Assembly (NCBI GenBank): GCA_012516855.1
Contig: JAAYWB010000015.1
Location: 1 to 36,013, forward strand
Direction of reading: 5' to 3'
Length of the DNA: 36,013 bases
Source: Candidatus Cloacimonadota bacterium
Lineage (GTDB): Bacteria > Cloacimonadota > Cloacimonadia > Cloacimonadales > Cloacimonadaceae
A program made the translations under genes and the position numbers. Of this stretch, positions 2,562 through 26,596 are shown in pieces. The notes beneath the pieces were generated by a model, which was not told where the DNA came from, ran no database searches, and was given only the letters and a program-made list of their open reading frames with translations. Position 1 is the first letter of the stretch, and each line of letters starts with the position of its first letter.

Positions 2562-5500
2562 TCAGAGTTCTGCCTTGAATTCCAGTTTGAGAGAATGCTT
2601 CACGTCCTGCTCCGGATAGGCTGTGCCGCTGTATTCCAGGGTCGCGGAGCTGAAGCTGTTGAGGCGGTAAACCGCGGAGGCAGACCAGTTGAGCAGCAAT
2701 CCACCCCGCTTCTCGGGCAGGAAAGCTAGAAACTCGCTGCCCTCGCGGAAATTGTAGCGGAGCCCGAAAGAGCCGTTCACGCGGGCTTTTTTGCCCCACA
2801 CACCGCGGTAGCCGGGTTCCAGGCCCAGCCCGCGCAGGCGGTAGCCCTCCCCGCTTTGCTGATGTATTCCGTCTTCCAGCCTGCCGCTGAGGTTCAGGGT
2901 GCCAATGTTGTTTGAAGTAAAGTTGCGTTGCACGAGCATTCTGAGCTCGTTCTGGGTAATGTCGGATAGATAGCGGGAGTCGGTTTCGTTGCTATGGTGA
3001 TAGCGGATGTTATAGTTGTTGCCGGCTAAGTTTTTCAGGTCAAACTCCGCTGAGTAGAGTGCTTCGGAAGCTCGGGACTGGCTCTGGTAGCGGTTGTCGA
3101 GGCTGCGATTGAACTGGGCGCCAAGGCTGCCGATCACGCGGTTGGGAACCAGGTCCAGCCAGAGGGTTTGGGAGAGGCGCTGATTGCTGAAAATGGTGGA
3201 AGGCCCGCTCAACGCGGTTTCCGGGAATATGAGGTAGCTACGCCAATCCGCCATCAGCGAATCCTGCAGGGTGCCCTGGAGGATGAGGTCGCCACGCAGC
3301 CAGTTCCATTTCGGGAACTGATTGCCGGGCTTGAGGTAAAGGCTTACCTGACCGTTCACCTCCGAACTCAGTGTCCCGCGTCCACTGGTGATGTAAACGT
3401 AGTCCCAATCGCCATCCGGGGTGTAAACTCCAGTGCTGTCATAGAGGCCGAGTCCGGAGCCGATGTATTCCAATTCGCGGATGCGGGGGAAGAACTCGGT
3501 TTGGTTGAGTTGGTAATTGCCCAGCAGCATCACAGCCTGTTGCAGGAAGTAGTGGGAATTGCGGAAGGAAACGAGGTTGTAGCTGGTTTTGGGACCTTCC
3601 TTTTGGATCTGGCGATGGGTGAATTCCAGGTTCAGATTGTGGTTGAGGGTAGTGGTGCTGTGTTTGAGGGCGTAGGTTTGCGAGCTGGCGGAGCTGACCC
3701 AATCTGTGTCTTTGCGGAAGTTGTTGTCCTGGATAAAACCAAGCTGTGAAAGACTGGTTTTGGCGACGCCAAGGGTGATTTGAGGATTCACACGGTAGTA
3801 GCGGCTGTCTGCTTCGGAAGCTGTGATATGGGAGTGCTCGAGGCTGTTGTAGTTGGCCAGCAGTTTGGCTTTGAACCAGTTGAAATCCCAGCTTCCGGCT
3901 AAATCGTGATACTGCATCAGACTGGAACCCCCGTCCGATACAAGGTCTTGCCAGGAAAGGGTAGAACGAAGGTCCAGCGCGGGAAACACGCCTTTGCCGG
4001 CGCTTTTTGAGAGCAGGCGCAACGCTTTCTGGCTGTAAAGGCCCGGAATATCCCGGTAACGCAAGGTCAGTTGTGGCTTCCAGGCCTCCCAGGCGCCCGA
4101 ACCCAAAGTGAGGTCAAGCCGCCACTGGGCCAGCGAATCGGCCGGTGCCAGCAGCGAGAGGTCATATTCTTCAGCATAACCGGATTGCTGGCTGAAGAGA
4201 AAGCTCTTCTCCCAGCGCCGCTCAAAATCAAGACCTACCCAGCTTGAGCGGGCATCTTCCCCACTTCTGAGCCTCCCCCAGGCGGTCAACAAGCCGCTGC
4301 GGTTGTCCTCATCATCCAAGGCGGAAAAGGTGTTTTTGTCATTGGTGGTATAGATGCCTTCCACGCCAAGCTCGAGGCCCTTGTAGCCATAGTTCAGGGC
4401 CAGGTCCGCGTTGTTGCGCAGCACAGCGGGAACCAAACGTTTCTGAGGCAGCCAGGAGCCCATTCCGGGACCCACGTAGCGGTATTTTCCGCTGGAATAT
4501 TCCTCGTAATCGCCATTGCCCAGGCCCACGAAGCTGAAAGTGAGGTTGTAAACGGCGGTGGTGTCCCCAGCGGCGTATTCATAGTAGGGAATTCCCTCCT
4601 CCGTGTAACACAGAATGTAGCTTCCCAAGCCGGGCTCCACAAGCGTGATGCCGTTTCCCCAAGCCACGCGGTCGCCTGCGGCACTCAGGGAATCGAGGTC
4701 AGCCGGGCTGAACTGATAGAGCAGAGGGGAATCTTTGGCATCGGCCTGGCGGATGAAATGATGCGAAATGGTGAGGCCCGGCAGAACCTGAATTTTGGAG
4801 GAATTGAAGAGAGTGGATTGCTTGTAATACTCATCCGCGTATTGGAACCAAGCGTTGATCTGGTCACTGGAGACCACCAGGTTGCGAAACATCACCGAGC
4901 CTTCGGAATAGTCGATATAATAGTCCGTTCCTCGTTCAAGCAGAATTCCGTTGCGGTAGATCTGCTCGCTGCCAGCGGTAATCAGATACGAGCTCTGCCA
5001 GCCGGTGGGATTGAGGTAATAGGGCCCCTGTTTGCCATCGATTATAGTGATAGCCTGACTGGCTGGTTTCCCCGCGGCGGCGGTGAAGCCGGCCTGGGCG
5101 AAATGGCGGTCCCGGTACCAGGCATTCAGGCCTTCAATGCTGGTACGGTAGTTGATGTAGCGGGTATCGGTGAATTCCCAGTCCAGGTCACCCATAGCAA
5201 TTTCATACTGTTTGCCGAACACCCGGATGAAGACCTTGTCTAGGCTGCTGAGTTCCTTGGAATCACCTTCCGGAGTGAGTTTGGACTGGCTGTCTGAAAG
5301 CTGGGCGGCGATATTCACATTGCGGGAAAGCTCGCCGTTCAGGTTCACGAACAGCGATTGCTTCAGGTCGAAGGCTTCCTCGTCCGAAAAGGTGATGGCA
5401 AAGGTCTTGGCGCCGGAGATGAGCAGTTTGCCGTCGTCCGGAAGCCAGCTTCGGGGACGGGGCGCAACGCTCTGGAACAGGCTGTCGGATGGGTCCAGTT

Positions 5501-5813
5501 CGTGGTAAAGCTGGCGCGGGCTGGCCAGGTCGGGAGGCACCAGCAGACAACTAACGCGCAGGTATTCAGCTTCGGGAAAGCGCTGCAGGATAAGGGCTCC
5601 GGCGCGGTGGTCGAGCCGGTAATCGAGGCCCGGAACCAAGAGCAGGGTGTCAGCGAAAACGGATTCTGACCCAGAAACGATAGGCCCCTGAGCAAGTTGG
5701 TAGGAAAGCTGGTCGGGCAACAGGGGCAAGCTGATATCCAGCACCAAGCCCTGCGCAGCCAGCGGCGCAAACGAGCTCAGGATCAGAACCGCGGCCAGGA
5801 TAAAGGGTCGCAC
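2562..5813 (-). CDS. Large outer-membrane protein with SprA-like repeat
   Basis: This 1083-residue secreted protein starts at GTG 5813, four bases after the umuD-like stop, with a signal peptide (MRPFILAAVLILSSFAPLAAQ). Residues of about 110-330 contain a block seen in SprA-type and related FCB outer-membrane proteins: ISGAKTFAITFSDEEAFDLKQSLFVNLNGELS, then QLSDSQSKLTPEGDSKELSSLDKVFIRVFG, then the YRNGILLERGTDYYIDYSEGSVMF element. The remaining 700 residues are rich in alternating aromatic and polar beta-strands (for example AVYRLNSFSSATLEYSGT), consistent with a big barrel. Real SprA is over 2000 residues, so this is a shorter relative and not the T9SS pore. It may act in surface translocation or as a structural barrel; the function is unknown. 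Confidence 0.75.
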   Translation of the reverse strand: MRPFILAAVLILSSFAPLAAQGLVLDISLPLLPDQLSYQLAQGPIVSGSESVFADTLLLVPGLDYRLDHRAGALILQRFPEAEYLRVSCLLVPPDLASPRQLYHELDPSDSLFQSVAPRPRSWLPDDGKLLISGAKTFAITFSDEEAFDLKQSLFVNLNGELSRNVNIAAQLSDSQSKLTPEGDSKELSSLDKVFIRVFGKQYEIAMGDLDWEFTDTRYINYRTSIEGLNAWYRDRHFAQAGFTAAAGKPASQAITIIDGKQGPYYLNPTGWQSSYLITAGSEQIYRNGILLERGTDYYIDYSEGSVMFRNLVVSSDQINAWFQYADEYYKQSTLFNSSKIQVLPGLTISHHFIRQADAKDSPLLYQFSPADLDSLSAAGDRVAWGNGITLVEPGLGSYILCYTEEGIPYYEYAAGDTTAVYNLTFSFVGLGNGDYEEYSSGKYRYVGPGMGSWLPQKRLVPAVLRNNADLALNYGYKGLELGVEGIYTTNDKNTFSALDDEDNRSGLLTAWGRLRSGEDARSSWVGLDFERRWEKSFLFSQQSGYAEEYDLSLLAPADSLAQWRLDLTLGSGAWEAWKPQLTLRYRDIPGLYSQKALRLLSKSAGKGVFPALDLRSTLSWQDLVSDGGSSLMQYHDLAGSWDFNWFKAKLLANYNSLEHSHITASEADSRYYRVNPQITLGVAKTSLSQLGFIQDNNFRKDTDWVSSASSQTYALKHSTTTLNHNLNLEFTHRQIQKEGPKTSYNLVSFRNSHYFLQQAVMLLGNYQLNQTEFFPRIRELEYIGSGLGLYDSTGVYTPDGDWDYVYITSGRGTLSSEVNGQVSLYLKPGNQFPKWNWLRGDLILQGTLQDSLMADWRSYLIFPETALSGPSTIFSNQRLSQTLWLDLVPNRVIGSLGAQFNRSLDNRYQSQSRASEALYSAEFDLKNLAGNNYNIRYHHSNETDSRYLSDITQNELRMLVQRNFTSNNIGTLNLSGRLEDGIHQQSGEGYRLRGLGLEPGYRGVWGKKARVNGSFGLRYNFREGSEFLAFLPEKRGGLLLNWSASAVYRLNSFSSATLEYSGTAYPEQDVKHSLKLEFKAEL

Positions 5814-8390: not shown

Positions 8391-8462
8391 GTTATATTTG
8401 GCGGCAAAAACCAATCCAAGCCCCGGATGGCTGCCCCGATTGAATGGAAAAGGATTTACCCT

Positions 8463-9518
8463 ATGCGACCCAATCGTGATGAACTGATAAATATGCTCAC
8501 TCTGTCCGATCCGGCGGAGCTGGAAGCGCTGTATAAACGCGCCTACGAGGTGAAAAGAGAATATGTGGGCACCAAAGTCTATTTCCGGGGACTGATTGAA
8601 TTAAGCAACATCTGCACTAAAAACTGCATTTACTGTGGCATCCGCAGCGGCAACCCCAACGTGAAGCGCTACCAGATCAGCCGGGAGGAAGTCCTTGCCG
8701 AGGCACGCTGGTGCTGGGAACAGCGCTACGGCTCGCTGGTGATACAGGCCGGTGAGCGCGAAGACAAGGCCTGGACGGACTTTATCACCGATCTGGTGGC
8801 GGACATCAAAAAACTCAGCCAGGGCGAACTAGGTATCACACTTTCCCTGGGTGAGCAAACGGAGGAAGTTTACCGCCAGTGGTTTGAGGCGGGTGCCCAT
8901 AGATACCTTTTGAGGATAGAGGAATCCAACCCCGAATTATACAAGGCACTGCATCCTGCCGGACATTCCTTTCAAAAACGCCTGGAATGCCTGCGGAGCC
9001 TGATGAAAGTGGGTTACCAAACCGGCACGGGAGTGATGATCGGGCTGCCGGGCCAGACGGCGGAACACCTGGCTGATGACATCCTTTTCTTTTATGATGA
9101 GGATATCGACATGATCGGCATGGGACCCTTCATCCCGCATCACGAGACGCCTTTGGCGCACCTGATCCCTTCTTACGACCCCGAAAAAGCACTGGAGGCG
9201 GGCTTGAAGATGATCGCCGCCACCAGAATTGCCCTTAGGGACGTCAACATCGCCTCCACAACAGCGCTGCAGGCCCTGATGTCCAGCGGCAGGGAACTTG
9301 GCCTGCTGGCCGGCGCGAACATCATCATGCCCAATATCACGGACACAAGTTTCCGGGATGGTTATCAACTCTATGAGGGAAAACCCGGTTTGGATGAAAA
9401 TGCCCAGAGTTCGCGCAGCGCGCTGGAAAAGAGCATCCTCTCCATCGGCGAAAGCATCGGCTATGCAGAATGGGGCGATTCGCGACATTTTAAGTCCAGA
9501 AATTGGAACGATTCTTGA
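8463..9518 (+). CDS. hydE: HydE-type radical SAM enzyme ([FeFe]-hydrogenase maturase family)
   Basis: The product is 351 residues from ATG 8463, chosen because AAGGA sits eight bases upstream and the family N-terminal helix begins here; an ATG at 8427 has no ribosome site. The radical SAM motif is C51-TKN-C55-IY-C58, followed by G. Other HydE hallmarks are TLSLGEQ, AHRYLLRIEESNPELY, VMIGLPGQT, MIGMGPFIPHHETPL and NIIMPNITDTSFRDGYQLYEG. HydE makes part of the diiron dithiolate site of [FeFe] hydrogenases from a HydG-derived iron-cyanide-carbonyl precursor. The optional second cluster cysteines near the C-terminus are absent. PylB and BioB are related but fit less well. No hydrogenase, hydF or hydG is in the window; the gene instead precedes a PqqD-like gene by 96 bases. 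Confidence 0.85.
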   Translation: MRPNRDELINMLTLSDPAELEALYKRAYEVKREYVGTKVYFRGLIELSNICTKNCIYCGIRSGNPNVKRYQISREEVLAEARWCWEQRYGSLVIQAGEREDKAWTDFITDLVADIKKLSQGELGITLSLGEQTEEVYRQWFEAGAHRYLLRIEESNPELYKALHPAGHSFQKRLECLRSLMKVGYQTGTGVMIGLPGQTAEHLADDILFFYDEDIDMIGMGPFIPHHETPLAHLIPSYDPEKALEAGLKMIAATRIALRDVNIASTTALQALMSSGRELGLLAGANIIMPNITDTSFRDGYQLYEGKPGLDENAQSSRSALEKSILSIGESIGYAEWGDSRHFKSRNWNDS

Positions 9519-9614
9519 TTGCAAAAGCAAACTTCGCAGTAATAATACCATTGCCGGGTATCAACCTTATTCCCGGTCGAAAAATATTCAAAAATCTGAA
9601 CAGAGGAGTTCATT

Positions 9615-9863
9615 ATGAACGTGGAAAACCTCAAACAGCTGGCGCTGAACGATAACGGCTTCGTCTTCGATCCCAGTAGCGGCTATAGCTATACAGCCAA
9701 CGAAACAGGCCTGGCCATCCTGAAAATGCTGGCAGCCGGCCAAACCAAAGACGAGATCAGAACCGCCATCCTGCAGGATTATGAGGTGAGCGCTGACAAT
9801 TTTGACAGCGATTTCGACCACTACACCCTGATGCTGGAAGCCTTCAACCTGGTGGAGCTCTGA
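9615..9863 (+). CDS. PqqD-like peptide-binding (RRE-fold) protein
   Basis: An 82-residue protein with GAGGAG before its ATG. The pattern fits PqqD: a beta-hairpin (GFVFDPSSGYSYTANET), a helix (GLAILKMLAAGQTKDEIRTAIL), then a C-terminal helix ending LMLEAFNLVEL. In the family, PqqD-type domains bind the leader peptide of a ribosomally made precursor and present it to a modifying enzyme; some function in other kinase or ligase systems. It overlaps the ATP-grasp start by one base (TGATG), so the two are translationally coupled and likely physical partners. A carrier protein is an alternative, but no phosphopantetheine DSL motif is present. No separate precursor peptide gene is visible. Confidence 0.8.
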   Translation: MNVENLKQLALNDNGFVFDPSSGYSYTANETGLAILKMLAAGQTKDEIRTAILQDYEVSADNFDSDFDHYTLMLEAFNLVEL

Positions 9864-10942
9864 TGGCGCGCAATCCAGATTTGAGCGCTCTGGACCTCAG
9901 CATCGCCGTGAGCGGCCTGAAAACCGGCGACAATCCCCAGCCTGGGGTACCGGTGATCCGCAGCATCAAAAACGCCGGCTTCCGGGGCAAGATGATCGGT
10001 CTGGTTTATGACGCTCTGGAATCCGGAATCTATCTGCCTGAGCTGGCGGATGAGATCTATCAGATGCCCTATCCCTCATCCGGCGCTGACGCCTTTCTGG
10101 GCCGCATCGACCAAATCCTGTCCCGAACCCGAATCGACGTGATCATACCTACCCTGGACGCGGAAATGATCCTCTACATCCGGCTGGAAAAAGAGCTTGC
10201 CAAACGCGGCATCCACACTTTTCTGCCCGATGAACGCTGCTTCTTACTTCGAGACAAGACTTCCCTGGCCAACTTCTTCCCGCCCCGGGGCATCGAAGTG
10301 CCTGAAACCGTGATGGTGAGCGACCCTGGCCAAATTGCCAAACACTGCGAAAAACTGGGCTATCCGCTGATGGTGAAGGGCAAGTATTATGAAGCATACA
10401 AGGTCTGGGACCTCGACGAGGCGCTGCAGCGCTTCCACGAAATCGCCGAAAGCTGGGGACTGCCGCTACTGCTGCAGAAAGTGGTTCCGGGTGACGAGTT
10501 CAACGTGGTGATCGTTGGTGACGGCGAAGGCGGCATGCTGGGAATGGTTCCTCAGAAAAAGCTGGTGATCACGGACAAAGGCAAAGGCTTCGGCGGCGTG
10601 GTGATCCAAAACCCCGGCCTGGACGCCTTTGCGGAGAAAGTGATCTCCCTGCTGAACTGGCGGGGCTCTTGCGAACTGGAAGTTATCAAGGGAAACGACA
10701 ACAAATACTATCTGATCGAGATAAATCCGCGCTTTCCAGCCTGGGTGCGCCTGGCTGAAGGAGCCGGGCAAAACCTGCCCGCGGTGACCGTTATGAAGGC
10801 CCTGGGGCAAGACTGTGAGCCGCTTCCTCCCTACCGGCCGGGAACCCTTTTCATCCGTCACGCGGAAGACATCATCTCCGAGATCGGGGTGATGGGCCAG
10901 ATTTCCGCCCAAAGCGAACTAATCCGAGGTAAAGAACAATGA
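9863..10942 (+). CDS. ATP-grasp ligase, CarB/PylC-like
   Basis: This 359-residue enzyme has an N-terminal Rossmann-like pre-ATP-grasp domain (about 1-125, with LDLSIAVSGLKTGDNP and IDVIIPTLDAEM) and an ATP-grasp fold. The nucleotide-binding lysine strand is YPLMVKGKYYEAYKV (about 168-181), and the metal-binding motif is LIEINPRFPAWV (E287, N289). Such enzymes activate a carboxylate as an acyl-phosphate and join it to an amine or thiol. The domain order resembles carbamoyl-phosphate-synthase halves and PylC, but there is no family-specific match that names the substrate. It lies between the PqqD-like gene and the PLP decarboxylase with one-base and four-base overlaps. It probably ligates an amino acid in the pathway built by these neighbours. 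Confidence 0.85.
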   Translation: MARNPDLSALDLSIAVSGLKTGDNPQPGVPVIRSIKNAGFRGKMIGLVYDALESGIYLPELADEIYQMPYPSSGADAFLGRIDQILSRTRIDVIIPTLDAEMILYIRLEKELAKRGIHTFLPDERCFLLRDKTSLANFFPPRGIEVPETVMVSDPGQIAKHCEKLGYPLMVKGKYYEAYKVWDLDEALQRFHEIAESWGLPLLLQKVVPGDEFNVVIVGDGEGGMLGMVPQKKLVITDKGKGFGGVVIQNPGLDAFAEKVISLLNWRGSCELEVIKGNDNKYYLIEINPRFPAWVRLAEGAGQNLPAVTVMKALGQDCEPLPPYRPGTLFIRHAEDIISEIGVMGQISAQSELIRGKEQ

Positions 10943-12288
10943 AAAAAACATACACTGCTCCCCACATCGAGCGCAACTATTCCGGGACCATGAACAAATA
11001 CGGCACCAAGAGCGTGGTGCGGCATCAGGACAGCATTGACGGCATACCGGTGAAGAAACTGGTGGAGAGTTACGGCTCGCCGCTGCTGGTTCTCTCCGAA
11101 AGCCAGATTCGCCGCCGCTATCAACACCTCACCGAAGTGATGAAGATGCACTATCCCAGGCTGGAGATGGCGTGGTCCTATAAAACCAACTACCTGGGCG
11201 CGGTTTGCAGCATCTACCACCAGGAAGGTGCCAAAGCCGAGGTTGTTTCCGGCATGGAATACAAGATGGCAAGGCGTTTGGGCGTGCCTGGCAAGGATAT
11301 CATTTTTAACGGCCCCGGCAAGAGGAAAGAAGATCTGGAGCTTGCCATCCGTGAAGGCGCGCGCATCCAGATCGACCATTTGGACGAACTCTACCTGATC
11401 GAAAAGACCGCCACGGAACTGGATACCATTCCTGACGTGGCCATCAGGGTGAATATGGACACGGGCGTTTACCCGCTCTGGACGCGTTTTGGTTTCAACT
11501 ACGAAAACGGAGAAGCCTTCCGGGCTATCCAGCGCCTGCTGAGCGGCAAGATGATGAACATCGTAGGCCTGCACACTCACATCGGCACCTTCATGCTGGA
11601 CGCGAACGCCTATTACCTGGCGGCCAAAGCATTGCTGAACCTGGCACAGAAGGTGCAGGATGAACTGGGTGTGGTGGTGAAATACATCGACCTCGGCGGC
11701 GGCTTTGCCTCGCAAAACACTCTTCACGAGCAGTACACACCGGGAGAGCTTTCCTCCCCCACTTTCGACCATTACGCTTCCGCTATCGGAGCCGCCTTCA
11801 ACGAATCGCGCTTTGTGAGCGAAAACCTGCCCACCCTGGTTCTGGAGACCGGACGCGCCCTAATCGACGAAGCGGGCTATCTGATCAGCTCCGTGATCGG
11901 CAAAAAGAACCTGCCCACAGGAGAACGCGCCATCATCCTAGACGCTGGCGTAAACACCGTGATCACCGCCTGGTGGTATAAACTGAAGGTTCTGCCCACC
12001 CGTCCCTTCCCAGGAACGTATCAGAACACCATTTTCTACGGCCCGCTGTGCATGAACATAGACATGATCCGCCAGGCCGTGCCTTTCCCTGACCTCTATA
12101 CCGGAGAGCAGGTGCTGGTGCATCCCGTTGGCGCTTATAACAACACCCAGTGGATGCAGTTCATCGAATACCGGCCCAAAATTGTGCTGATCAGCGAAAC
12201 GGGCAAACCGGAGCTAATCCGCGACAAAGAGGAACTAAGCGACATCATCGAGCGTGAATATATCCCCGAACACCTGAAACAGATATGA
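10939..12288 (+). CDS. Fold-type III PLP decarboxylase (diaminopimelate/ornithine decarboxylase family)
   Basis: This 449-residue enzyme shows the alanine-racemase-like barrel and C-terminal beta domain. The PLP lysine is K82 in WSYKTNYL. Further landmarks are HTHIGTF (211-217), DLGGGF (250-255, phosphate binding), ETGRAL (302-307), GPLCMNIDMI with C370 and D374, and GAYN (397-400). These are the landmarks of LysA and related decarboxylases; the substrate residues are not diagnostic, so lysine biosynthesis is not implied. The ATG at 10939 overlaps the ATP-grasp stop (ATGA) and has GAGGT eight bases upstream. About 28 extra N-terminal residues (MKKTYTAPHIERNYSG...) precede the catalytic domain and carry a YxxPxI motif. 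An internal ATG at 10990 has a weaker ribosome site. Confidence 0.88.
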   Translation: MKKTYTAPHIERNYSGTMNKYGTKSVVRHQDSIDGIPVKKLVESYGSPLLVLSESQIRRRYQHLTEVMKMHYPRLEMAWSYKTNYLGAVCSIYHQEGAKAEVVSGMEYKMARRLGVPGKDIIFNGPGKRKEDLELAIREGARIQIDHLDELYLIEKTATELDTIPDVAIRVNMDTGVYPLWTRFGFNYENGEAFRAIQRLLSGKMMNIVGLHTHIGTFMLDANAYYLAAKALLNLAQKVQDELGVVVKYIDLGGGFASQNTLHEQYTPGELSSPTFDHYASAIGAAFNESRFVSENLPTLVLETGRALIDEAGYLISSVIGKKNLPTGERAIILDAGVNTVITAWWYKLKVLPTRPFPGTYQNTIFYGPLCMNIDMIRQAVPFPDLYTGEQVLVHPVGAYNNTQWMQFIEYRPKIVLISETGKPELIRDKEELSDIIEREYIPEHLKQI

Positions 12289-14492
12289 GCAAGATCGCCG
12301 CGGCTGCCCTGCCCTTTCTGAAAGCGATACCACACAGCTATGCCACAGTCATGTTTTCGGACAATCTGTGGCTGGGGCTGGCGTTGCTGGCCCTTACCCT
12401 GGCGTCACCGATCGTGGGTATGGCCGGTTTGCTGGGGCTACTGGTGGCGCTGGCGGCAACGCGGCTGACGGGTTTTGAGGACTGGCACAGCGGCAGTGGG
12501 GTTCTGGCCTTCAACAGCCTGCTGATCTCACTAACCATCGGCTACTATTATCCGTTGAGCGGGGTTCGGGAGCAGCCTCTGCCCTTCGTCTGCCTGATCG
12601 TGATCGCTTCGCTGGCCACACTACTGCTCTATGTGGTGCTTAATTACGCAACCATGAACGCGTTTAAGCTGCCCTCAATGAGCCTTGCTTTTTCCATCAT
12701 GGGCACCCTGATCTGGTACTATCTGGTGCGCAGCGGCAATTTCAACGGCGAAGGCTTCCTAAAGCCGTTGCTCTTCAACCTGAAGCTTGATCTGCCGTGG
12801 TTTTGGAAGAATTACTTCCTCTCGATGGGCAGCATCATGTTCGTGCCGGATATCGCCGTGGGGATCGGCGTTGCGCTGATCCTGCTGATGATCACCAGGA
12901 TCGGCTTTCTGCTTTCGCTTCTGGGCTGGGCTATCTGCTGGTGGTTGCTGGGTTTCGCCACTATCGGCACCACTTACGGGATGTTCTTTCCCGGCTTCAA
13001 CCTCATCCTGATCAGCATCAGCGTGGGCTCTGTCTATCTTATCCCGGGAAAATCCTCCTATCTGATGGCGGCGCTGGCCACCATTTTCGGGTTCGGGATC
13101 GCTTTCGCGCTGTCCGGGAAGTATTTCTACGCCGACTATATGCCCGGGCGCGGAGCCTATCTGATGGTGCCGATGTTCGCCTTTCCCTTCAACCTCGTGG
13201 TGCTCACCACCATCTTCGCTCTGCGGCAGAGGTTGGCACACCGTTCCCCCGTGCTCAACGAGGTGGGTATCCTGCATCCGGAAAAGGCACTGGACGCCTA
13301 TATGAGCCGCTACAAGCGCTTTTCCAGCACCGGCATCCCGCAGCTTCTCTTGCCTGTGACAGGTGAATGGACAATAACCCAAGGCCACAACGGCGCTCAC
13401 ACCCACCAAAAGGAATGGGCTAACGCCTGGGACTTTGAGATCGAGGATGTGAACGGAAAAATATATTCAGAAGATCCCACCAGCCTCAAAGACCATTACG
13501 CCTTCGGAAAACCAGTCCATGCTGCCGCGGCTGGCTATGTGGCCAAGGTTGTGAACGGCATCGCGGACAACCCAATCGGCATCACCAACACCCAGGACAA
13601 CTGGGGAAACTACGTAAGCATCTACCACATGGCTGGTTACTATACGCTTTACGCCCATCTGAAAGAAGGCTCGATCAAGTTCAGCGAAGGCGACTACGTG
13701 AAGCAAGGCGAAAAGATTGGCCAGGTGGGAAATTCCGGCCGCTCACCTGTGCCCCATCTGCATTTTCAGGCCCAATCCGGCGCTGAAGCCGGCACCAAAA
13801 GCATTTACTGCCATCTTCTAAACTACAAGGTCCACGGAGCGGACGGTACCCAAAGATTCATAGGCAGCGGCATCCCCAAAGAAAGGGAGAGGATTTCCCC
13901 CCTGATCCCGGAAAAGGAACTGGCGAACCTTCTCCAGCTCGGATACCATCAAAAACAGAGCTTCCTGGTGCAAAACGGCGGAACGGAACACACCGAAAAC
14001 TGGGAGGTTGAGCTCGACCTGCTGGGTATCCACCGTCTTAATTCCGACAGCGGCTGCAGCCTGGAGTTTTCCATCTACAATGGCATCTACAATTCCCTCA
14101 ACCTTTCCAGCCGCCGCCTCTGCGCGCTAAGTGCCTTTGCCCTTGGGGCTTCACGCATTCCCTGGGCGGAAAACGCAGAACTGGCCTGGGAGGACGAACC
14201 CAGCCTCTCCGTAGTGATGAATTCCTTCTGGAAAAACCTCACCCTCTTTCTGATACCCTTTTTCCAACCGATCCGAGCGCGAACGGTTTCCAAACTGGCA
14301 CCAGCGGACAAAGACCTTGTCCAGACCAGCGAAACCACCCTGAAAGTACTGGGGATCACGGTCCGAAGCCACCAATCGCGGATCATCCTCTCCCGCCGGG
14401 ACGGCCTCAAATCAATCGAACTGGCGCATAACGGCAAAACCCTGTTGACCGCCACCAAAATCAAAACCCAGGAGGAAAACGACCTTGCTTAA
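12285..14492 (+). CDS. Urea-transporter-family channel fused to M23 metallopeptidase
   Basis: This is a 735-residue fusion. Residues of about 10-315 form roughly ten membrane segments like the UT urea-channel family, including MFSDNLWLGLALLALTLASP and a gap then GSGVLAFNSLLISLTIGYYYP. Residues of about 345-510 are a LytM/M23 domain: THQKEWANAWDFEI supplies the first His and Asp ligands (about 371 and 382), VPHLHFQ (about 490-492) the HxH ligands. A further 200-residue C-terminal region is unidentified and contains a hydrophobic stretch (FWKNLTLFLIPFF). The peptidase would face the periplasm and cut peptidoglycan crosslinks. It starts inside the decarboxylase stop codon region (ATGA), which ties it to the same pathway. 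Whether it passes urea or another small molecule is unknown. Confidence 0.82.
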   Translation: MSKIAAAALPFLKAIPHSYATVMFSDNLWLGLALLALTLASPIVGMAGLLGLLVALAATRLTGFEDWHSGSGVLAFNSLLISLTIGYYYPLSGVREQPLPFVCLIVIASLATLLLYVVLNYATMNAFKLPSMSLAFSIMGTLIWYYLVRSGNFNGEGFLKPLLFNLKLDLPWFWKNYFLSMGSIMFVPDIAVGIGVALILLMITRIGFLLSLLGWAICWWLLGFATIGTTYGMFFPGFNLILISISVGSVYLIPGKSSYLMAALATIFGFGIAFALSGKYFYADYMPGRGAYLMVPMFAFPFNLVVLTTIFALRQRLAHRSPVLNEVGILHPEKALDAYMSRYKRFSSTGIPQLLLPVTGEWTITQGHNGAHTHQKEWANAWDFEIEDVNGKIYSEDPTSLKDHYAFGKPVHAAAAGYVAKVVNGIADNPIGITNTQDNWGNYVSIYHMAGYYTLYAHLKEGSIKFSEGDYVKQGEKIGQVGNSGRSPVPHLHFQAQSGAEAGTKSIYCHLLNYKVHGADGTQRFIGSGIPKERERISPLIPEKELANLLQLGYHQKQSFLVQNGGTEHTENWEVELDLLGIHRLNSDSGCSLEFSIYNGIYNSLNLSSRRLCALSAFALGASRIPWAENAELAWEDEPSLSVVMNSFWKNLTLFLIPFFQPIRARTVSKLAPADKDLVQTSETTLKVLGITVRSHQSRIILSRRDGLKSIELAHNGKTLLTATKIKTQEENDLA

Positions 14493-15087
14493 AACCATCC
14501 TCATCATCCTTGCCCTGCTGGTTGCGGCCTTGCCACTTACAGCCTTGCGGAGCATCACGGATTCTTACCAGGCCGAGGCGCGCGGCGATTATAACGGTGC
14601 CCTGGCCATCGCGCGCGAACTGCTGGCTACGGCCCCAAACGACGCTTTCTATCAGGTGCGCGTTGCCTGGCTGCTATATCTGCAGGGAAACTACGGTGAT
14701 GCCGCCAGCGCCTATCAAGCATCCATCCGCCTGCAGGACAGCCTAGACGCCCAACTAGGCCGGCTGAATTCCCTGCTGGCCTTGGGCCGCTACACCGAAG
14801 CCCTTCAACACAGCCGCGCTCAAATCGTTCTGCATCCGGAAAACACCGTTTTGCTGGGAAAAGGTGCTTACGCGGCTTACATGCTAAAGGATTACCGCAC
14901 CGCGGCTGAATTCTTCGGCCGCATCGCTGTGCTCTATCCTTGGGATATGGAAAACAGGGAATACTTGATGAACAACCTCTACCTCAGCGAACAGGAAGAC
15001 GCTGCCCGCGAGCATTATCTATTCCTGAAGAAGTATTATCCTCAGGCGTCGCTTCTGCCAAACTACGAGAGGATTTTCGAGCCCTGA
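14485..15087 (+). CDS. Periplasmic TPR protein
   Basis: A 200-residue protein from a TTG start at 14485, eight bases inside the preceding gene, with AGGAGG just upstream. It begins with a signal sequence (MLKTILIILALLVAALPLTALRS) without lipobox. The rest is TPR-like: ARGDYNGALAIARELLATAPNDAFYQVRVAWLLYLQGNYGDAASAYQ, then three more units. It probably assembles envelope proteins of this operon. The next gene starts five bases on and is also TPR-bearing, so the two may act as a pair. No catalytic motif is present. Confidence 0.75.
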   Translation: MLKTILIILALLVAALPLTALRSITDSYQAEARGDYNGALAIARELLATAPNDAFYQVRVAWLLYLQGNYGDAASAYQASIRLQDSLDAQLGRLNSLLALGRYTEALQHSRAQIVLHPENTVLLGKGAYAAYMLKDYRTAAEFFGRIAVLYPWDMENREYLMNNLYLSEQEDAAREHYLFLKKYYPQASLLPNYERIFEP

Positions 15088-15091
15088 GCAG

Positions 15092-16354
15092 ATGAAGAAA
15101 GCGCTCTTGCTGCTGCTTCTGGCGGTGGTTGCCGCCGTCGCGCAAACCCAGGATTATCCAAACCTTATCCGCAAGACGCGGCAGTATCTGAGCGTGTTTC
15201 CCGAAAACAATTCCGAGCGGCTGGCGCTGGCCTGGTATTTCATGCAAAACGCACAGCCAGACAGCGCCCTGGCCCGTTATCAGGAAGCATTCCTATTCGA
15301 CCCAGCCAGCGCTGACGCGGCTTCCGGAAGCCTTTGGGCGCTGAATTCGCTTAACCGCTATTCTAAATCGGTAAGCAGGTCAAAAACCCTGATCCACGCT
15401 TTCCCGGAAAATCCGGATATCTTCAATCACCGGGGCCTGGCCTTGCTGCAAACCTACGAGCCGCTGCAAGCCAGAGCCAGCTACCTTACCGCGCAAAAGT
15501 TGACCGCGCCAAACAGCGAAAGCCACACCATTGCTGCTGACGGCCTGGCCTGGAGTTATCTCAATTCTGGCGACTTAGCCAACGCGCAAAGCATCATTAA
15601 AAACAGCACAATGCCCTTAAGCGCGGCACCCTGGCTGGAAAAACCCCGCCCCGCTGTTTCAGCCGGATTCGGTTACAAACAAAATGGTGACACTTACTGG
15701 CTAGTCGGAGCTTCCCTGCGCCTGAGAACTTACTCCGCGGCTCTGGGTTTCGAGGAATACCGGCTCGCCAGACAGCACTTCCGAACCGCCTATTCTCTCG
15801 ATCTGGGCAAACAATTTACCCCCCTGGACCTCAAACTTGGAGCCAAAGCATTCAGCGGAGCCGATGCCGGCAGCTACCCAGCCTGGCAGGGAAGCGCATC
15901 CATCGCTGGCAAAGCCTACATTTTCAGCCTTCGTTTCAGTCCGCTCCTGTTGTTTCATTACACCTATGCTCCGGTTTTTTCAGCCGCCCAAGCCGATCTT
16001 GGCTTCAAAATCTCGACTGACCGGCTCAACCTTCTGCTCATGTATTCGGGGCTCTATCGGGACTATCTTTCCGTGGGCACAGACCAAACCGCCCGGGTTT
16101 TCAGCGGAATCGCGGACTTGCGCCTCTACCGCTTCCTACGCCTGAGTTTCAGCGCCAGCCATGGGGACATGGCCTGGTGGACCAATCCTTACGGGGTAAC
16201 CCTCGACACCATGTATCCCAATACCACCAATCTTGGCCTGGGCCTCAGCATTCCCCTGGGCAAAGGGTTTGGCCTCTCACTTTTCAGCCAGTTAGGACTG
16301 ATCGATGACACCAGCAACCATCTCCTCCAAGGCGTCCTCAGCTATGCGCCGTAA
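15092..16354 (+). CDS. YaiO-like TPR plus outer-membrane barrel protein
   Basis: A 420-residue exported protein with a signal peptide (MKKALLLLLLAVVAAVAQTQ). Residues of about 20-180 are TPR units (NSERLALAWYFMQNAQPDSALARYQEAFLFDPAS). From about 190 to the end the sequence switches to alternating aromatic beta-strands (SAGFGYKQNGDTYWLVGASLRL, LGLGLSIPLGKGFGLSLFSQLGL), a predicted membrane barrel. This TPR-then-barrel order is like YaiO-family outer-membrane proteins, although I cannot confirm homology. It presumably forms the outer-membrane end of the operon's pathway. It overlaps the following lipoprotein gene by 11 bases when the better start of that gene is used. Confidence 0.7.
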   Translation: MKKALLLLLLAVVAAVAQTQDYPNLIRKTRQYLSVFPENNSERLALAWYFMQNAQPDSALARYQEAFLFDPASADAASGSLWALNSLNRYSKSVSRSKTLIHAFPENPDIFNHRGLALLQTYEPLQARASYLTAQKLTAPNSESHTIAADGLAWSYLNSGDLANAQSIIKNSTMPLSAAPWLEKPRPAVSAGFGYKQNGDTYWLVGASLRLRTYSAALGFEEYRLARQHFRTAYSLDLGKQFTPLDLKLGAKAFSGADAGSYPAWQGSASIAGKAYIFSLRFSPLLLFHYTYAPVFSAAQADLGFKISTDRLNLLLMYSGLYRDYLSVGTDQTARVFSGIADLRLYRFLRLSFSASHGDMAWWTNPYGVTLDTMYPNTTNLGLGLSIPLGKGFGLSLFSQLGLIDDTSNHLLQGVLSYAP

Positions 16355-19073
16355 GCTCTGGGTAGCCCTGCTCCTGCTTTTTGCGCTGTTCGCGGCCTCT
16401 TGCAACCTGCGCGAGAACACCCTCCTGCCAGAACATCTGGACCCTCTCCAGTACGTAACCTCAAACACGATTAAGGTTTACAAGGACCATCTGATCGGCT
16501 CCGAGAACGACAAGTCCTATCTCTACATCCCCAAGGAAAGCATCCACGATAATAAACTCTGGTACAATGACGTGGTCCGCCTGCGCCGGGTGGACAGCCT
16601 TCTGGAACGGGATAGCCTGGCTTTCGCAGAAGGTGTGGAAGCCATCACCAACTGCTACAGGATTAGCATCGAGCGCAACGGCACCGAGATCATTCTGGAT
16701 TCCATCCCCGCCTTCGCTACCTTCTACACTGACCTCAAAGGCTCAAAAAACACTTCGGATGCCTGGGTGGTGCGCAGCCAGTACATGCTCTACGCGGATA
16801 AATTCCCACTTGAGACTTATGGCAAAAACCGCGTTTTCTTCGAAATCGACGGCAACGGCGACATGGAGGTGCAGAATCCCGGAAACGCTGGCGTGTTCAA
16901 CTTTCCAGCCGCCAACACCGATATGGAAGCACTTTACTATTCCGATACAGAGAAGCTGCAGATCTGGTTTCCCCAAGCCTACCTGACTTCGGCTGGACAG
17001 ACCCGGCTGGAGATCTTGCCCCAGCTTGGTGACGTTGATGTGAGCGCCGTCCAGGCTGTTTATCCCGGTTTCGCGCTGAACACCAAAGTACTGGATGTGA
17101 GGACCAAATCTGCACCTGATGCCTCCTCTCCCCCCATCCTGCATTGGACGCAGCCTCCAGCTCGCAAATTCGTGCAGGAATGGGTTCGGCTCCAGGGCGG
17201 GCGGGTGTTCGGCTGGACTCAGGGTCCGGAAACCTGGGTAGTGCGAAACAACGTTCTGATCAGCTTTTTAAAGGGCAGTGGCAAGTATTTCCTGCTCTCG
17301 CCGCTGGGTGAACAGGAGGTGCTTGAACTCCCTCTGGACGGCGGTTTCGACCAGCTTTACCTGCAGGACCTGTGGCTGGACCTGCGCGACACAGCCCTGC
17401 CAAATCATTCCCTGCGCCTGAATACCCGACCCAATCAGGCTTCAGTGGTCTCTGCCTATTTCAGCGGCGCGCCCTTTACGCTGGGTAGCGAACGCCAGGC
17501 TCTCCAACTGGATTTCCGCAGCGGAAACAACATCGTGGAAACCCTGCCAGGTAACAACTGGATAGAATTTGGCTTCCGCAACCAACTTGCAGACACCGCC
17601 AACGCCAGACTCTTCCGGGTTTTCCGCTCTTCCGGCAGCGACCACATCGACTTTAAAACCCGCGGTGATACCTATGATGCTCACCACTACAGCCTCAGCA
17701 GCGGTTTCGTTTACAGCGGCGTTAATTCCTCCGGCACCTATTTGCTGGGCCAGGTGGGTGAATCCAGCCAGCAGCAAAGCTTTCCCTTCCTCAAACCGGA
17801 AACCTCGATACAAACCAGCCGTGGCTATGTTTCCTGGAACGATCCCGGCACAGCTTGGGGTTCGCTGCTCCTAGAATACGGTGTGGCGATGCCTTCGCAT
17901 CCCTGGCTGAGCGGACAGCCCTACGTTTTTTCCGCACAGAACGCCCTGCTGCGGATCACAGCTTACACCCGGGGCAAAAAACGCTCAGCCAGCCTGCCCG
18001 CCAACACCTTCCTAGTTTACAAGTATGCCAATCCGCTGGAAAACCTGATCAATTTCAGCCCGGACGTCGACCATCCACGCTTCGTCTGGTACAAGGCCGC
18101 GGCCGAGTTTGCACACAACACCTTTATGTATCAGGATGGTGCTTTGCGCGTTTCACCAGCCTGGTCTGGCTACCTCTTCAACGGCGGTTCACTTGATCCC
18201 GGCTCCGCCAGCAGCCTGCGTCTCTATCCGCGCATGACCTTCGACAATTACGAATGGGAATATTTCGCTGACGCCAACAGCACTCCCTCCGGCACTCCGG
18301 TTCTACGAATCTCCCGTCTGAACGGTGTTCCCGACACACATGGCGTGCTGGCTGGCCAATATGACCTCAGCCCGTTGACACCGGCCTGGTCACTTTCCGT
18401 GAGCGGCTCCAGCGATTTTTATTCAACGCAGTTGCCCTGGCTCCGCTTCCGGCAAAACTCCCGGGCGCAGAACCTGCTTTTCTCCATCTACGAAGTCGAA
18501 TTTTACAGGATTTATCCCTATTCGCAATCAGCAAGCTCTGATCCCTGGCACTTCACCTTCGCCGATGGCCACGTGGGCTTCTATCTTTCCAGCGACGCGG
18601 TTTACGCTCCCATGATAGATGTAAATCCACATCTGAGCGTTTCCACGCAGGTCAATTCCAGCGCGGCAGACCACATCGTTTCCCTCTACCAGGCTCAGTT
18701 GAATCTGCCCGCAAGCCTGATTGGATCAGCTGTTCCCCTTAATTCACGGATCATTCTCCGCGAGGCGGTGGATTATTCTGTTCCCCACCTCAGCGCCTAT
18801 TTCCTGGATTTCCGCACCGCTGCCGGAACGCAGTATGATCCAGGCTTTTACTCCCTGCCTGGAGCCCCCAGCCTGCCCTACATCTACATTCCCATCCCGG
18901 ATTACGTTCCCAGCCAAAGCCACAGCCTCTTCTTCCGGAGCGTGGACGGAACCTTGACGGAATTCAGCCTGGTGGACAATTTTGGCGAAAATGGCCTCGG
19001 TGAGTATATCATGATCGGAAACTGCGCCGTTGCTTTGGTGGATGGCCCCGGCTGGTTCTATACCACAAACTGA
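16344..19073 (+). CDS. Large lipoprotein of unknown function
   Basis: The product is 909 residues from ATG 16344; this start gives a clean lipoprotein signal (MRRKLWVALLLLFALFAASC), while an earlier in-frame ATG would add 13 residues in front. The mature protein is almost all beta and rich in Ser, Tyr and Asp, with no repeat or catalytic motif that I can name. Phrases such as YADKFPLETYGKNRVFFEIDGNGDMEVQNPG hint at beta-sandwich domains. It is the last gene of the long plus-strand operon and would be anchored to the inner or outer membrane. It may be a surface or periplasmic partner of the barrel protein; this rests on position only. Confidence 0.7.
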   Translation: MRRKLWVALLLLFALFAASCNLRENTLLPEHLDPLQYVTSNTIKVYKDHLIGSENDKSYLYIPKESIHDNKLWYNDVVRLRRVDSLLERDSLAFAEGVEAITNCYRISIERNGTEIILDSIPAFATFYTDLKGSKNTSDAWVVRSQYMLYADKFPLETYGKNRVFFEIDGNGDMEVQNPGNAGVFNFPAANTDMEALYYSDTEKLQIWFPQAYLTSAGQTRLEILPQLGDVDVSAVQAVYPGFALNTKVLDVRTKSAPDASSPPILHWTQPPARKFVQEWVRLQGGRVFGWTQGPETWVVRNNVLISFLKGSGKYFLLSPLGEQEVLELPLDGGFDQLYLQDLWLDLRDTALPNHSLRLNTRPNQASVVSAYFSGAPFTLGSERQALQLDFRSGNNIVETLPGNNWIEFGFRNQLADTANARLFRVFRSSGSDHIDFKTRGDTYDAHHYSLSSGFVYSGVNSSGTYLLGQVGESSQQQSFPFLKPETSIQTSRGYVSWNDPGTAWGSLLLEYGVAMPSHPWLSGQPYVFSAQNALLRITAYTRGKKRSASLPANTFLVYKYANPLENLINFSPDVDHPRFVWYKAAAEFAHNTFMYQDGALRVSPAWSGYLFNGGSLDPGSASSLRLYPRMTFDNYEWEYFADANSTPSGTPVLRISRLNGVPDTHGVLAGQYDLSPLTPAWSLSVSGSSDFYSTQLPWLRFRQNSRAQNLLFSIYEVEFYRIYPYSQSASSDPWHFTFADGHVGFYLSSDAVYAPMIDVNPHLSVSTQVNSSAADHIVSLYQAQLNLPASLIGSAVPLNSRIILREAVDYSVPHLSAYFLDFRTAAGTQYDPGFYSLPGAPSLPYIYIPIPDYVPSQSHSLFFRSVDGTLTEFSLVDNFGENGLGEYIMIGNCAVALVDGPGWFYTTN

Positions 19074-22155: not shown

Positions 22156-25002
22156 CTATTTGCAGAGCACCATTTTACGGAATTGGGAGAAAGTTCCTGC
22201 TCTCATGCGGTAGAGATAAACCCCGCTGGAGAGCGGCACTCCGCTATGGTCGCGGCCGTCAAAGCTGAAGCTGTAATGGCCGGGGGCACTGTGTTCCTTG
22301 GAATAAGAACGCACGATCTGGCCGCGCTGGTTGTAGATGTCGATCTCCACCTGCGAAGGTTCCGCCAGGCTGTATGACAGCGTGGTGCTGGGGTTAAAGG
22401 GGTTGGGGTAGGCCGGATTGAGCGCCGTGACCAAAGGAATGGAGGGAATCCCGCCACCCACGGTCGTGAAGGCAATTGAAATGGGGCCGTGGTAGTCCAC
22501 TGTTCCGTCCAGATCGGAGTTTTGCAGCCAGTACCAGTAAGTTCCATCCTCGCATAGTTCGTCGTCGGTAAAGAAATAGGTCTGCTGCTGTGAAGTGTTG
22601 GTGGCCTGGATAAGTTCACTTACAGTCGTGGCGGTGGCCAGTTCATCATTGCCTCCACGCAGAACGTAAAAGCCCTGCACGCCTGTTTCCGTCTGGGTCA
22701 CCCAGGTTAGATTCACATAGTTTTCCGCCGAGATGGCAGCGGTGAAGGAGGAGAGCTGAACAGGAAGGGATGCCTCTACCTGCAAAGTGACAGGTATGGA
22801 TATGGAAGGATTGCTGCTACTGTTGCTGGTGAGAGACAGGGACGTAGTGTAAGTTCCAGCGGCCAGCCCGGTTGAATTGAACCCGACCGCTATCACATCC
22901 GTATCTTTAGTCACACCGTTAACCGATCCGCTGACCGTGTCGCCGCCATTAAGAGTGAGCCAGGAAGGGGTGTAACTGTTGCTGCCGATTGAAACATCAT
23001 CAATGCAGACACCGTATCCGTAATCTGTGATGCCTTCAAAGGCGACGTAGTATGTTGCGCTGGGATTTGGCAGGTTGATAGTCCTTTGGGTCCAAGTGGT
23101 AATGCTTTCAGTGTAATGAGCGATTTGCGTCCAGGGTCCACCTGAAGAAGTTTTATAATACACTTTTAACTGATCCTGATCTCCAAACCAGCTCGCTTGG
23201 GTGTGCCAGAAACTTAACACAGGATTGGCATGAGCTGATAAATCCATGGAGGGGGTGACAAGTTTTGTGGTCCTGGGTGTTGTGCTGTTATTGTAGTAAA
23301 GCCTGGCATTATAGTCTCCGCTATGGGCCGAGGCTGGATTTGTGTTATTAATACCACCGGACGTAAAAGCCCAGTTCAGATTGTATGAGTCATACTCCTG
23401 GGTCCAACCTGTTGGTATTGAACCACCATTTTCAAAATCCTCGGTTAAAACCGGATTTGAGTCAACCTGTTTTGAAAGAGTATAGTTGAGCACTATCTCA
23501 CCGGTGTTGCCGATGGTCAGGTTTTGTGAAGCTGTGGCATCCGGAGTCAATTCCTGGTTGAATGAGGTGGGAGCCCAAGTGATGGCAGCCGGCTGCAGTA
23601 GCGCTCGGTGAGCATTGACCATTCCGTATCCGGTATAGCGGTCCCAACCTGCTCCACCGTCAATTGTCATGTCAGTGGCGGAGTTTTTCATGATATTCCA
23701 GACTTGCGCCGGGGTTAGGGTGGGTTTCAAAGATAGGATCAAAGCCGCCACACCAGCGGCATAGGGAGTGGCGCAGGAAGTGCCGTTGAACCACATATAG
23801 TAATCGCTGTCAGGATCATAGCCGTTATCTGTACCGGTTATATCCGTTGTCGGCAGAATCGTGGGAGCCATGATGTCCACTGATCCCTGATGATCCGGGA
23901 TATCGATACCATAGTTTGAACCCCACCAGTATTCTCCGTCTGAAGAGCTTGGACTCTTTCTCTGCCCCGTGGGACTTGAAGCACCCACACTGATAACTTT
24001 ATTGTGGTTTGAGGGGTAGGCAATCGCTGGGGCGTTACTGTTGGCCGTGGCGGCAAAAATCACCACACCTTTGGAGTAGGCATATTCCAACGCATTATCT
24101 GTTGAGGGGATATCGCCCTCTCCAGTACCACCTTCCGCTCCCAAGCTCAAGCTGATGACACGCGCACCGTTATCAGCGGCATGGGTGATGGCATTGGTGA
24201 TGGCAGTGAAGCCCAAATCACCATTGGAATTTGCTACCTTCAGCGGCATTACGCTACAGCCGCCGGCGATGCCCGCGACGCCTATTCCGTTGTTTGCTTT
24301 GGCTGCGGCTACACCCGCACAGGCGGTCCCGTGCCCTGGCTTACTAGAATCATCCATGGGATTGGGATCATTGTCACCGTAATCGTAGCCAGTCACCAAG
24401 CGCAGATCCGGGTGAGCGGTGTCAACACCGGTATCGATGATAGCAATTATTATTGAAGATGAGCCATAACCCTGAGCTTGGTCCCAGGCCAATTGCGCGT
24501 CGCTATCCCAGCCGCTACCGCCGCCCCCGGGGCCTTGGCCGGTGTTGTTGTGACCCCAATTGGTGGTATAAAGGGAATCGTTGGGCACGGCCTGGGTATA
24601 GGCAAAGTATTCCAGACCGGCGTCCTCGACCTCGGGGTCGGTGAGGAAGTCAGACAGAGCCGTATGCACATCCGTGCTGCCGTCCAGCATGATAATGAAC
24701 CAGCGGTCGAAACCTGTGTTTTGTTCCCAGACGATGTCATTCACCCGGCGGTGGGCGCGTTTAAGTCTGCTGCCGCTGTTGCGGGCCATTTTTTCATCCA
24801 GGCTGGCAATGCCAAAAGTGGTTTTTTCTGTTTGGAGGTCTTGAGGCAAGTCCGCTCTGCCCTTTGCTTCCGAAGTGAGTTTGATTATAATGCGGTCCGA
24901 GGCATAAGCAGGTCGATCACCCACTTCATGCAATTTTGCTGAAGCCGACAGAACCAAGCACATGCTGAAAAAAACCGAGAAAAGAAAAAGTATCTTACGC
25001 AT
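22156..25002 (-). CDS. Secreted subtilisin-like (S8) protease with C-terminal sorting domain
   Basis: A 948-residue secreted protease with a signal peptide (MRKILFLFSVFFSMCLVLSASA) and AGGAG before the start. A propeptide-like region precedes the S8 domain, whose triad is D190 (IIDTGVDTAHPDL), H224 (GHGTACAGVAAAKA) and Ser about 409 (GTSCATPYAAGVAAL). Next come a choice-of-anchor beta domain, a cleaved-adhesin/MAM-like domain (LTEDFENGGSIPTGW...VCIDDVSIG), and a C-terminal domain with YPNPFNPSTTLSYSL and YNQRGQIVRSY, ending SGVYLYRMRAG, the FlgD-like type IX-style sorting signal. It is probably exported and attached to or released from the cell surface. It is a single-gene unit. Confidence 0.93.
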   Translation of the reverse strand: MRKILFLFSVFFSMCLVLSASAKLHEVGDRPAYASDRIIIKLTSEAKGRADLPQDLQTEKTTFGIASLDEKMARNSGSRLKRAHRRVNDIVWEQNTGFDRWFIIMLDGSTDVHTALSDFLTDPEVEDAGLEYFAYTQAVPNDSLYTTNWGHNNTGQGPGGGGSGWDSDAQLAWDQAQGYGSSSIIIAIIDTGVDTAHPDLRLVTGYDYGDNDPNPMDDSSKPGHGTACAGVAAAKANNGIGVAGIAGGCSVMPLKVANSNGDLGFTAITNAITHAADNGARVISLSLGAEGGTGEGDIPSTDNALEYAYSKGVVIFAATANSNAPAIAYPSNHNKVISVGASSPTGQRKSPSSSDGEYWWGSNYGIDIPDHQGSVDIMAPTILPTTDITGTDNGYDPDSDYYMWFNGTSCATPYAAGVAALILSLKPTLTPAQVWNIMKNSATDMTIDGGAGWDRYTGYGMVNAHRALLQPAAITWAPTSFNQELTPDATASQNLTIGNTGEIVLNYTLSKQVDSNPVLTEDFENGGSIPTGWTQEYDSYNLNWAFTSGGINNTNPASAHSGDYNARLYYNNSTTPRTTKLVTPSMDLSAHANPVLSFWHTQASWFGDQDQLKVYYKTSSGGPWTQIAHYTESITTWTQRTINLPNPSATYYVAFEGITDYGYGVCIDDVSIGSNSYTPSWLTLNGGDTVSGSVNGVTKDTDVIAVGFNSTGLAAGTYTTSLSLTSNSSSNPSISIPVTLQVEASLPVQLSSFTAAISAENYVNLTWVTQTETGVQGFYVLRGGNDELATATTVSELIQATNTSQQQTYFFTDDELCEDGTYWYWLQNSDLDGTVDYHGPISIAFTTVGGGIPSIPLVTALNPAYPNPFNPSTTLSYSLAEPSQVEIDIYNQRGQIVRSYSKEHSAPGHYSFSFDGRDHSGVPLSSGVYLYRMRAGTFSQFRKMVLCK

Positions 25003-26551: not shown

Positions 26552-26580
26552 GGGCCTGCTTTTGACGGCAGGCCCTTTTT
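26552..26580 (+). terminator. Rho-independent terminator of the 25724 lipoprotein gene
   Basis: An eight-base stem GGGCCTGC/GCAGGCCC with an eight-base loop is followed by T5, 28 bases after the stop codon. It also separates this gene from the PP-loop gene that begins just downstream. Confidence 0.9.
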
Positions 26581-26596
26581 GATGGAAAAGGATGCC

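Follow-up and report, generated by a model that had tools for sequence, protein, structure and literature searches.

Among described enzymes, those most comparable to the central enzyme analysed here, a PLP decarboxylase, are FslC/FigC, SbnH, AcsE, MccE and BtrK, which have been grouped as decarboxylases of conjugated amino acids (PMC7857480). The first four have the same fold and conserved cysteine as our enzyme (protein D below), FslC also has its Cys-Met loop, and all four act on side-chain conjugates. In FslC/FigC-type pathways the conjugation is carried out by NIS synthetases or other enzymes, unlike the ATP-grasp ligase found beside D (protein C). To our knowledge, the systems that contain FslC, SbnH, AcsE or MccE have no ATP-grasp, PqqD, urea-transporter, M23 or barrel partners. 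In butirosin synthesis (BtrJ-BtrI-BtrK), likewise, an ATP-grasp ligase is paired with a decarboxylase of the DAPDC clade that acts after ligation. BtrI is an acyl carrier protein, whereas the small protein of the present locus (protein B) is PqqD-like, and we know of no channel or envelope proteins in butirosin synthesis.

The other parts of the locus also have described counterparts. Bacterial urea transporters (UT), such as dvUT (3k3f), share their fold with protein E, which differs from them in its filter residues and in its fusion to an M23 domain and a beta domain. M23/LytM endopeptidases such as DipM and LytM have the fold and the zinc and catalytic residues found in E, but the M23 domain of E hangs on the predicted cytosolic end of a membrane channel, unlike DipM and LytM. 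The spacing between the first histidine and the aspartate is 9 in E, longer than the spacing of 4 in LytM. Like the PqqD-type RiPP recognition elements, B exceeded the Pfam cut-off for PqqD (34.6 bits; cut-off 23.4), but it had no adjoining precursor peptide: across 105 loci, the 1.5 kb preceding B contained no recurrent small open reading frame. None of B, C, D and E scored over the cut-off of any NCBIfam equivalog, and the core proteins bear superfamily names only. The set of genes is undescribed in the open-access literature, in which no account of it was found; a description in a closed journal is possible.

The gene run and its distribution

The window (the whole stretch of Candidatus Cloacimonadota DNA that was analysed, 36,013 nucleotides) contains seven genes, B-C-D-E-F-G-H, at 9615-19073 on the + strand, all in one direction and with junctions of -11 to +4 bases:

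9615..9863, + strand: gene B, PqqD-like protein of 82 aa (Pfam PqqD), first in the run, with RBS GAGGAG
9863..10942, + strand: gene C, ATP-grasp ligase of 359 aa (Pfam ATPgrasp_Ter, ATP-grasp_3)
10939..12288, + strand: gene D, alanine-racemase-fold PLP decarboxylase of 449 aa (Pfam; nearest solved chain 7kh2)
12285..14492, + strand: gene E, urea-transporter channel joined to an M23 peptidase and a C-terminal beta domain (Pfam, profile match, AF2)
14485..15087, + strand: gene F, periplasmic TPR protein with an N-terminal signal and a TTG start (Pfam TPR)
15092..16354, + strand: gene G, signal, TPR region (Pfam TPR) and predicted outer-membrane barrel
16344..19073, + strand: gene H, large lipoprotein (lipobox ASCNLREN)

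Every open reading frame named in the first-pass annotation was found, and its description of seven closely packed, co-directional genes from a pqqD-like gene to a large lipoprotein was confirmed in both junctions and domains. B and C meet in TGATG, a 1-base overlap, and the C/D and D/E junctions are both ATGA, with 4-base overlaps. E and F overlap by 8 bases, F and G are separated by 4 bases, and G and H overlap by 11 bases if H starts at the ATG at 16344. Scans for promoters and terminators gave matches near chance level, the search for RNA elements returned only two tRNAs, and none of the seven module proteins matched in the PADLOC defence search.

Thirty-seven of the 125 genomes of the phylum, Cloacimonadota, contained the UT+M23 fusion (E), and 35 contained D. 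All 35 genomes with D also had the fusion (Fisher p about 5e-29, shared ancestry ignored), and in the two genomes with E and no D, E lies within 400 bases of a contig start. The order B-C-D-E-F-G-H recurred, with changing flanks, in 34 loci fetched from Cloacimonadota genomes, the exceptions being loci truncated at the end of a contig and remoter members with no recognisable G or H. Presence was patchy even within the genus of the window (3 of 13 genomes), so the module is accessory in this phylum.

When GTDB genomes were scanned with an alignment of D, at least 585 matches were obtained, and the best 80 of these were examined as the distant set. These loci represented more than 20 phyla, including Aquificota, Thermodesulfobacteriota, Campylobacterota, Pseudomonadota, Cyanobacteriota, Verrucomicrobiota and Gemmatimonadota. 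The core common to them comprised the PqqD-like protein, the ATP-grasp ligase, the PLP decarboxylase, the UT+M23 protein, an outer-membrane barrel and a periplasmic TPR protein. Among these best 80, D had C nearby in 75 loci; the figures for B, E and F were 74, 69 and 55, and many of the missing neighbours are accounted for by contig ends. Junctions in the distant loci clustered at -4 to +13 bases. In all seven genomes in which E did not adjoin D, it was encoded elsewhere, in one of them as a channel only, and C was present in all nine genomes checked. In Fibrobacterota and some other groups the gene order was shuffled and the gene set unchanged. Because the same order recurs across the phylum and in more than 20 others, the gene run is not a chance arrangement. 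The earlier interpretation is supported in part, namely in its suggestion of one coherent, undescribed, envelope-linked pathway. The possibility that homologues lie apart in related genomes had also been raised; instead, the fusion accompanied D in every D-bearing genome of the phylum, and the genes were adjacent in more than 20 phyla. The tree of D intermixes several phyla, which fits horizontal spread but does not prove it, and a plasmid search with D returned only distant lysA-like matches.

Two genes that had been placed in the set do not belong to its core. The HydE gene upstream (starting at 8427 or 8463 and ending at 9518) scored above its NCBIfam cut-off, but it adjoins the module only in the window and four fetched relatives, and 31 of 41 relatives had it, irrespective of the presence of the module. 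Since it is rarely adjacent and occurs independently, HydE is a mere neighbour, and its membership was rejected. The large lipoprotein H, which has no family match, is indeed last in the run in the window, and its lipobox is kept in relatives. It was found only in the window's family and order-level relatives and was absent from the distant loci, and is thus an accessory of close relatives.

Several further features were seen near distant copies of the module. In one locus (L103:188-3846) the module is preceded by a further, incomplete copy of the PqqD and ATP-grasp genes. A large family, seemingly of sensor kinases or other regulators and defined by single-linkage clustering, lies near the module in 22 distant loci (L160:2180-5518 and loci of the same cluster). 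In a Verrucomicrobia MAG, a radical SAM/SPASM-type gene lies directly 3' of the UT+M23 gene (L143:13738-14982).

The decarboxylase, the ligase and the PqqD-like protein

Protein D carries the Pfam domain of Orn/DAP/Arg decarboxylases, and its nearest solved chain, 7kh2, is the N-citrylornithine decarboxylase FslC. Its best phmmer scores were to FslC (177), Mj DAPDC (160), BtrK (120) and ODC (about 52), and in a tree the D family joins FslC at 97, at a point where long branches meet. D scored 208 bits against the lysA model TIGR01048 (cut-off 297.9) and 208.7 bits against the FslC/FigC model NF041039 (cut-off 500), below the cut-off in both cases. The PLP lysine motif SYKTN was present in 110 of 111 D sequences, and at least 105 of the 111 showed the catalytic cysteine, as GPLC or GSLC, the remainder being left unresolved by the pattern. 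The GPLCM loop, found in 103 of 111, has the Cys-Met of FslC, where DAPDC has Cys-Glu. After the DxGM/DAGM motif, D reads NTVITAWWY where 1twi reads NDMMRPAMY, and the substrate-binding arginine of LysA was not found there. It had been considered earlier that the PLP enzyme might simply be the only lysA of the genome. LysA was rejected as the identity of D on the basis of the score, the methionine in place of glutamate after the cysteine, and the lack of D in most relatives. As FslC, SbnH, AcsE, MccE and BtrK act on conjugates, D, by analogy, should act after ligation, with C as the adjoining ligase.

The matches of C to Pfam were weak, yet over the cut-offs of both families. The AF2 model of C (pLDDT 94) was nearest in fold to 2pn1, to biotin carboxylases and to the L-amino-acid ligases RizA and 3vot, a resemblance too general to single out a substrate.

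B heads the gene run in nearly all relatives and has the motif GF.FDP.TG.S..N.TG. No NCBIfam PqqD subfamily was over its cut-off for B, which has neither a conserved C-terminus nor a carrier serine. No acyl carrier protein with a phosphopantetheine serine was found, and Pfam gave no PP-binding match. The butirosin-like logic that the first-pass annotation had offered as an alternative is therefore apt in one respect, the ranking of FslC, then DAPDC and BtrK as the best scores of D, and fails in another, the lack of an acyl carrier protein. In two relatives (L172:5342-6139 and L174:8116-8886) the PqqD domain lies C-terminally in a longer protein that appears HTH/TetR-like by eye in its N-terminal half; Pfam reported only PqqD, and no HTH, in these two proteins.

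The channel-peptidase fusion and the envelope proteins

Protein E consists of a UT region (residues 13-312), an M23 domain (about 345-500) and a C-terminal beta domain (about 510-735). Residues 13-312 matched the profiles of 3k3f (dvUT), 3me1 and UT-B end to end, so that the UT fold extends over its full length, and Foldseek also recognised this fold in the AF2 model (pLDDT 88), with a TMt of about 0.8 against bacterial UT. The residues corresponding to Q24, E187, T130 and T294 of the dvUT filter are T, S, S and A in the E of the window, and E/A, A, S and T/A in the wider family. The zinc and catalytic residues of the M23 domain (H374, D383, H458, H491 and H493) were conserved in 96 of 96 E sequences, and its fold was nearest to LytM wall enzymes by Foldseek.

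The M23 domain of E is predicted to be cytosolic. Both ends of UT proteins are cytosolic, and E has no TM segment between the channel and the M23 domain and the same TM count as UT proteins; the topology reading leans on this general UT orientation. The net charges of E agree with it (+1.6 at the N-terminus, +1.6 in the C-tail and -0.5 in the loop between the halves). In addition, on one contig of a Planctomycetota MAG (L149:3165-6422), the E and TPR genes form a single in-frame fusion that retains the TPR signal helix internally, which would place the M23 domain inside if the TPR part is outside. All of the M23 enzymes known to us act outside the cytosol. It had been proposed that this domain acts on the cell wall; the homology to UT, the TM count, the charges and the fusion all point the other way, and the predicted location makes cutting of the wall unlikely. 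In Brasilonema (L164:11410-12838) there is a channel-only frame, lacking M23, followed by a small downstream frame.

Both F and G carry signals. G occupies the place where other phyla have a barrel of about 290 residues with no Pfam family, which was seen in 40 of the distant loci (among the best 80 of at least 585 matches). The barrel part of G has no family either, and its homology to the distant barrels is weak, with an hhalign probability of 13%. Cyanobacterial versions have OprB porins beside the module.

Possible function of the module

The reading that we favour, tentatively and at somewhat less than even chances, is trans-envelope synthesis and export, in which C would ligate, D decarboxylate and the M23 domain release a product that leaves through the UT channel and the TPR and barrel proteins. 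For this conserved module we infer a chemistry with a putative substrate and product. C may activate a carboxylate and attach it to an amino-acid side chain, or join the amino acid to a carrier, and B may present that carrier, or sense it or the product. D would then remove the carboxyl group at the alpha carbon of the conjugated amino acid, which is left free, in the manner of FslC, SbnH, MccE and BtrK. At the cytosolic face, the M23 domain of E would cut an amide or peptide link, freeing an amine product at the mouth of the UT channel, which, with its altered filter, would pass it to the periplasm. The TPR protein and the outer-membrane barrel would then carry the product out or hold it at the surface. 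The fully specified form, a phylum-spanning system in which diderm bacteria decarboxylate a carrier-bound or conjugated amino acid and release it by a membrane-bound cytosolic M23 amidase into a repurposed urea-type export channel, is more doubtful; if true, it would represent a novel type of secretion route for small molecules.

Maturation of a RiPP-type product is an unlikely explanation. B would bind the leader of a peptide encoded elsewhere, C would ligate or add a residue, D would decarboxylate it as MccE does in microcin C, the M23 domain would remove the leader and the channel would export the peptide. A PqqD domain close to enzymes and transporters is usually the sign of a RiPP cluster (PMC7470986), MccE probably falls in the clade of D (PMC7857480) and the M23 domain is predicted to be cytosolic, but the 105 loci have no conserved small open reading frame upstream of B, and a peptide would not fit through UT channels, whose solutes are of urea size. 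A cell-wall pathway, in which the amine made by C and D decorates peptidoglycan or is exported and a periplasmic M23 domain works on the wall, is slightly less probable again; it resembles the idea of the first-pass annotation. It agrees with the intact catalytic residues, the LytM-like fold and the periplasmic or outer-membrane TPR and barrel proteins; the four observations that place the M23 domain in the cytosol argue against it.

A metallophore or siderophore-like system is improbable; its product would be a chelator of the FslC type that leaves the cell and may be taken back up at the outer membrane. The nearest solved relative of D makes rhizoferrin and, judging by the record titles, iron or sulfur bacteria are numerous among the hosts, but none of the recurring neighbour families was recognised as an NIS synthetase, MFS exporter or TonB receptor, and the channel family carries small neutral solutes. 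Least probable of all is the reverse direction, in which barrel and channel import a small amide that the M23 domain and D degrade, with B as a sensor. UT and OprB-type channels could be used in either direction, and the two relatives with longer PqqD proteins would supply an HTH-like part, seen by eye and not confirmed by Pfam. The presence of an ATP-consuming ligase in the core of the run, in all of the genomes checked (9 of 9), counts against this reading.

The wide retention of the gene set (at least 585 matches, more than 20 phyla) and its tight coupling indicate that it should make something that many diderm bacteria use. If true, synthesis and export as favoured here would mean that the urea-transporter fold serves a further, new purpose, that M23 peptidases can act in the cytosol and that a new amine metabolite exists. 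Some hosts are available in culture, such as Thermodesulfatator autotrophicus and Thermodesulfobacterium hydrogeniphilum, which makes the proposal testable now.

Outside the module, three other genes of the window were noted: a subtilase with MAM, FlgD-like and type IX secretion tail domains (22156-25002), a secreted protein of 1083 residues with no Pfam family that is possibly located in the outer membrane (2562-5813), and a gene in which a ThiI-like domain is joined to an NFACT-R_2 domain (26579-27589).
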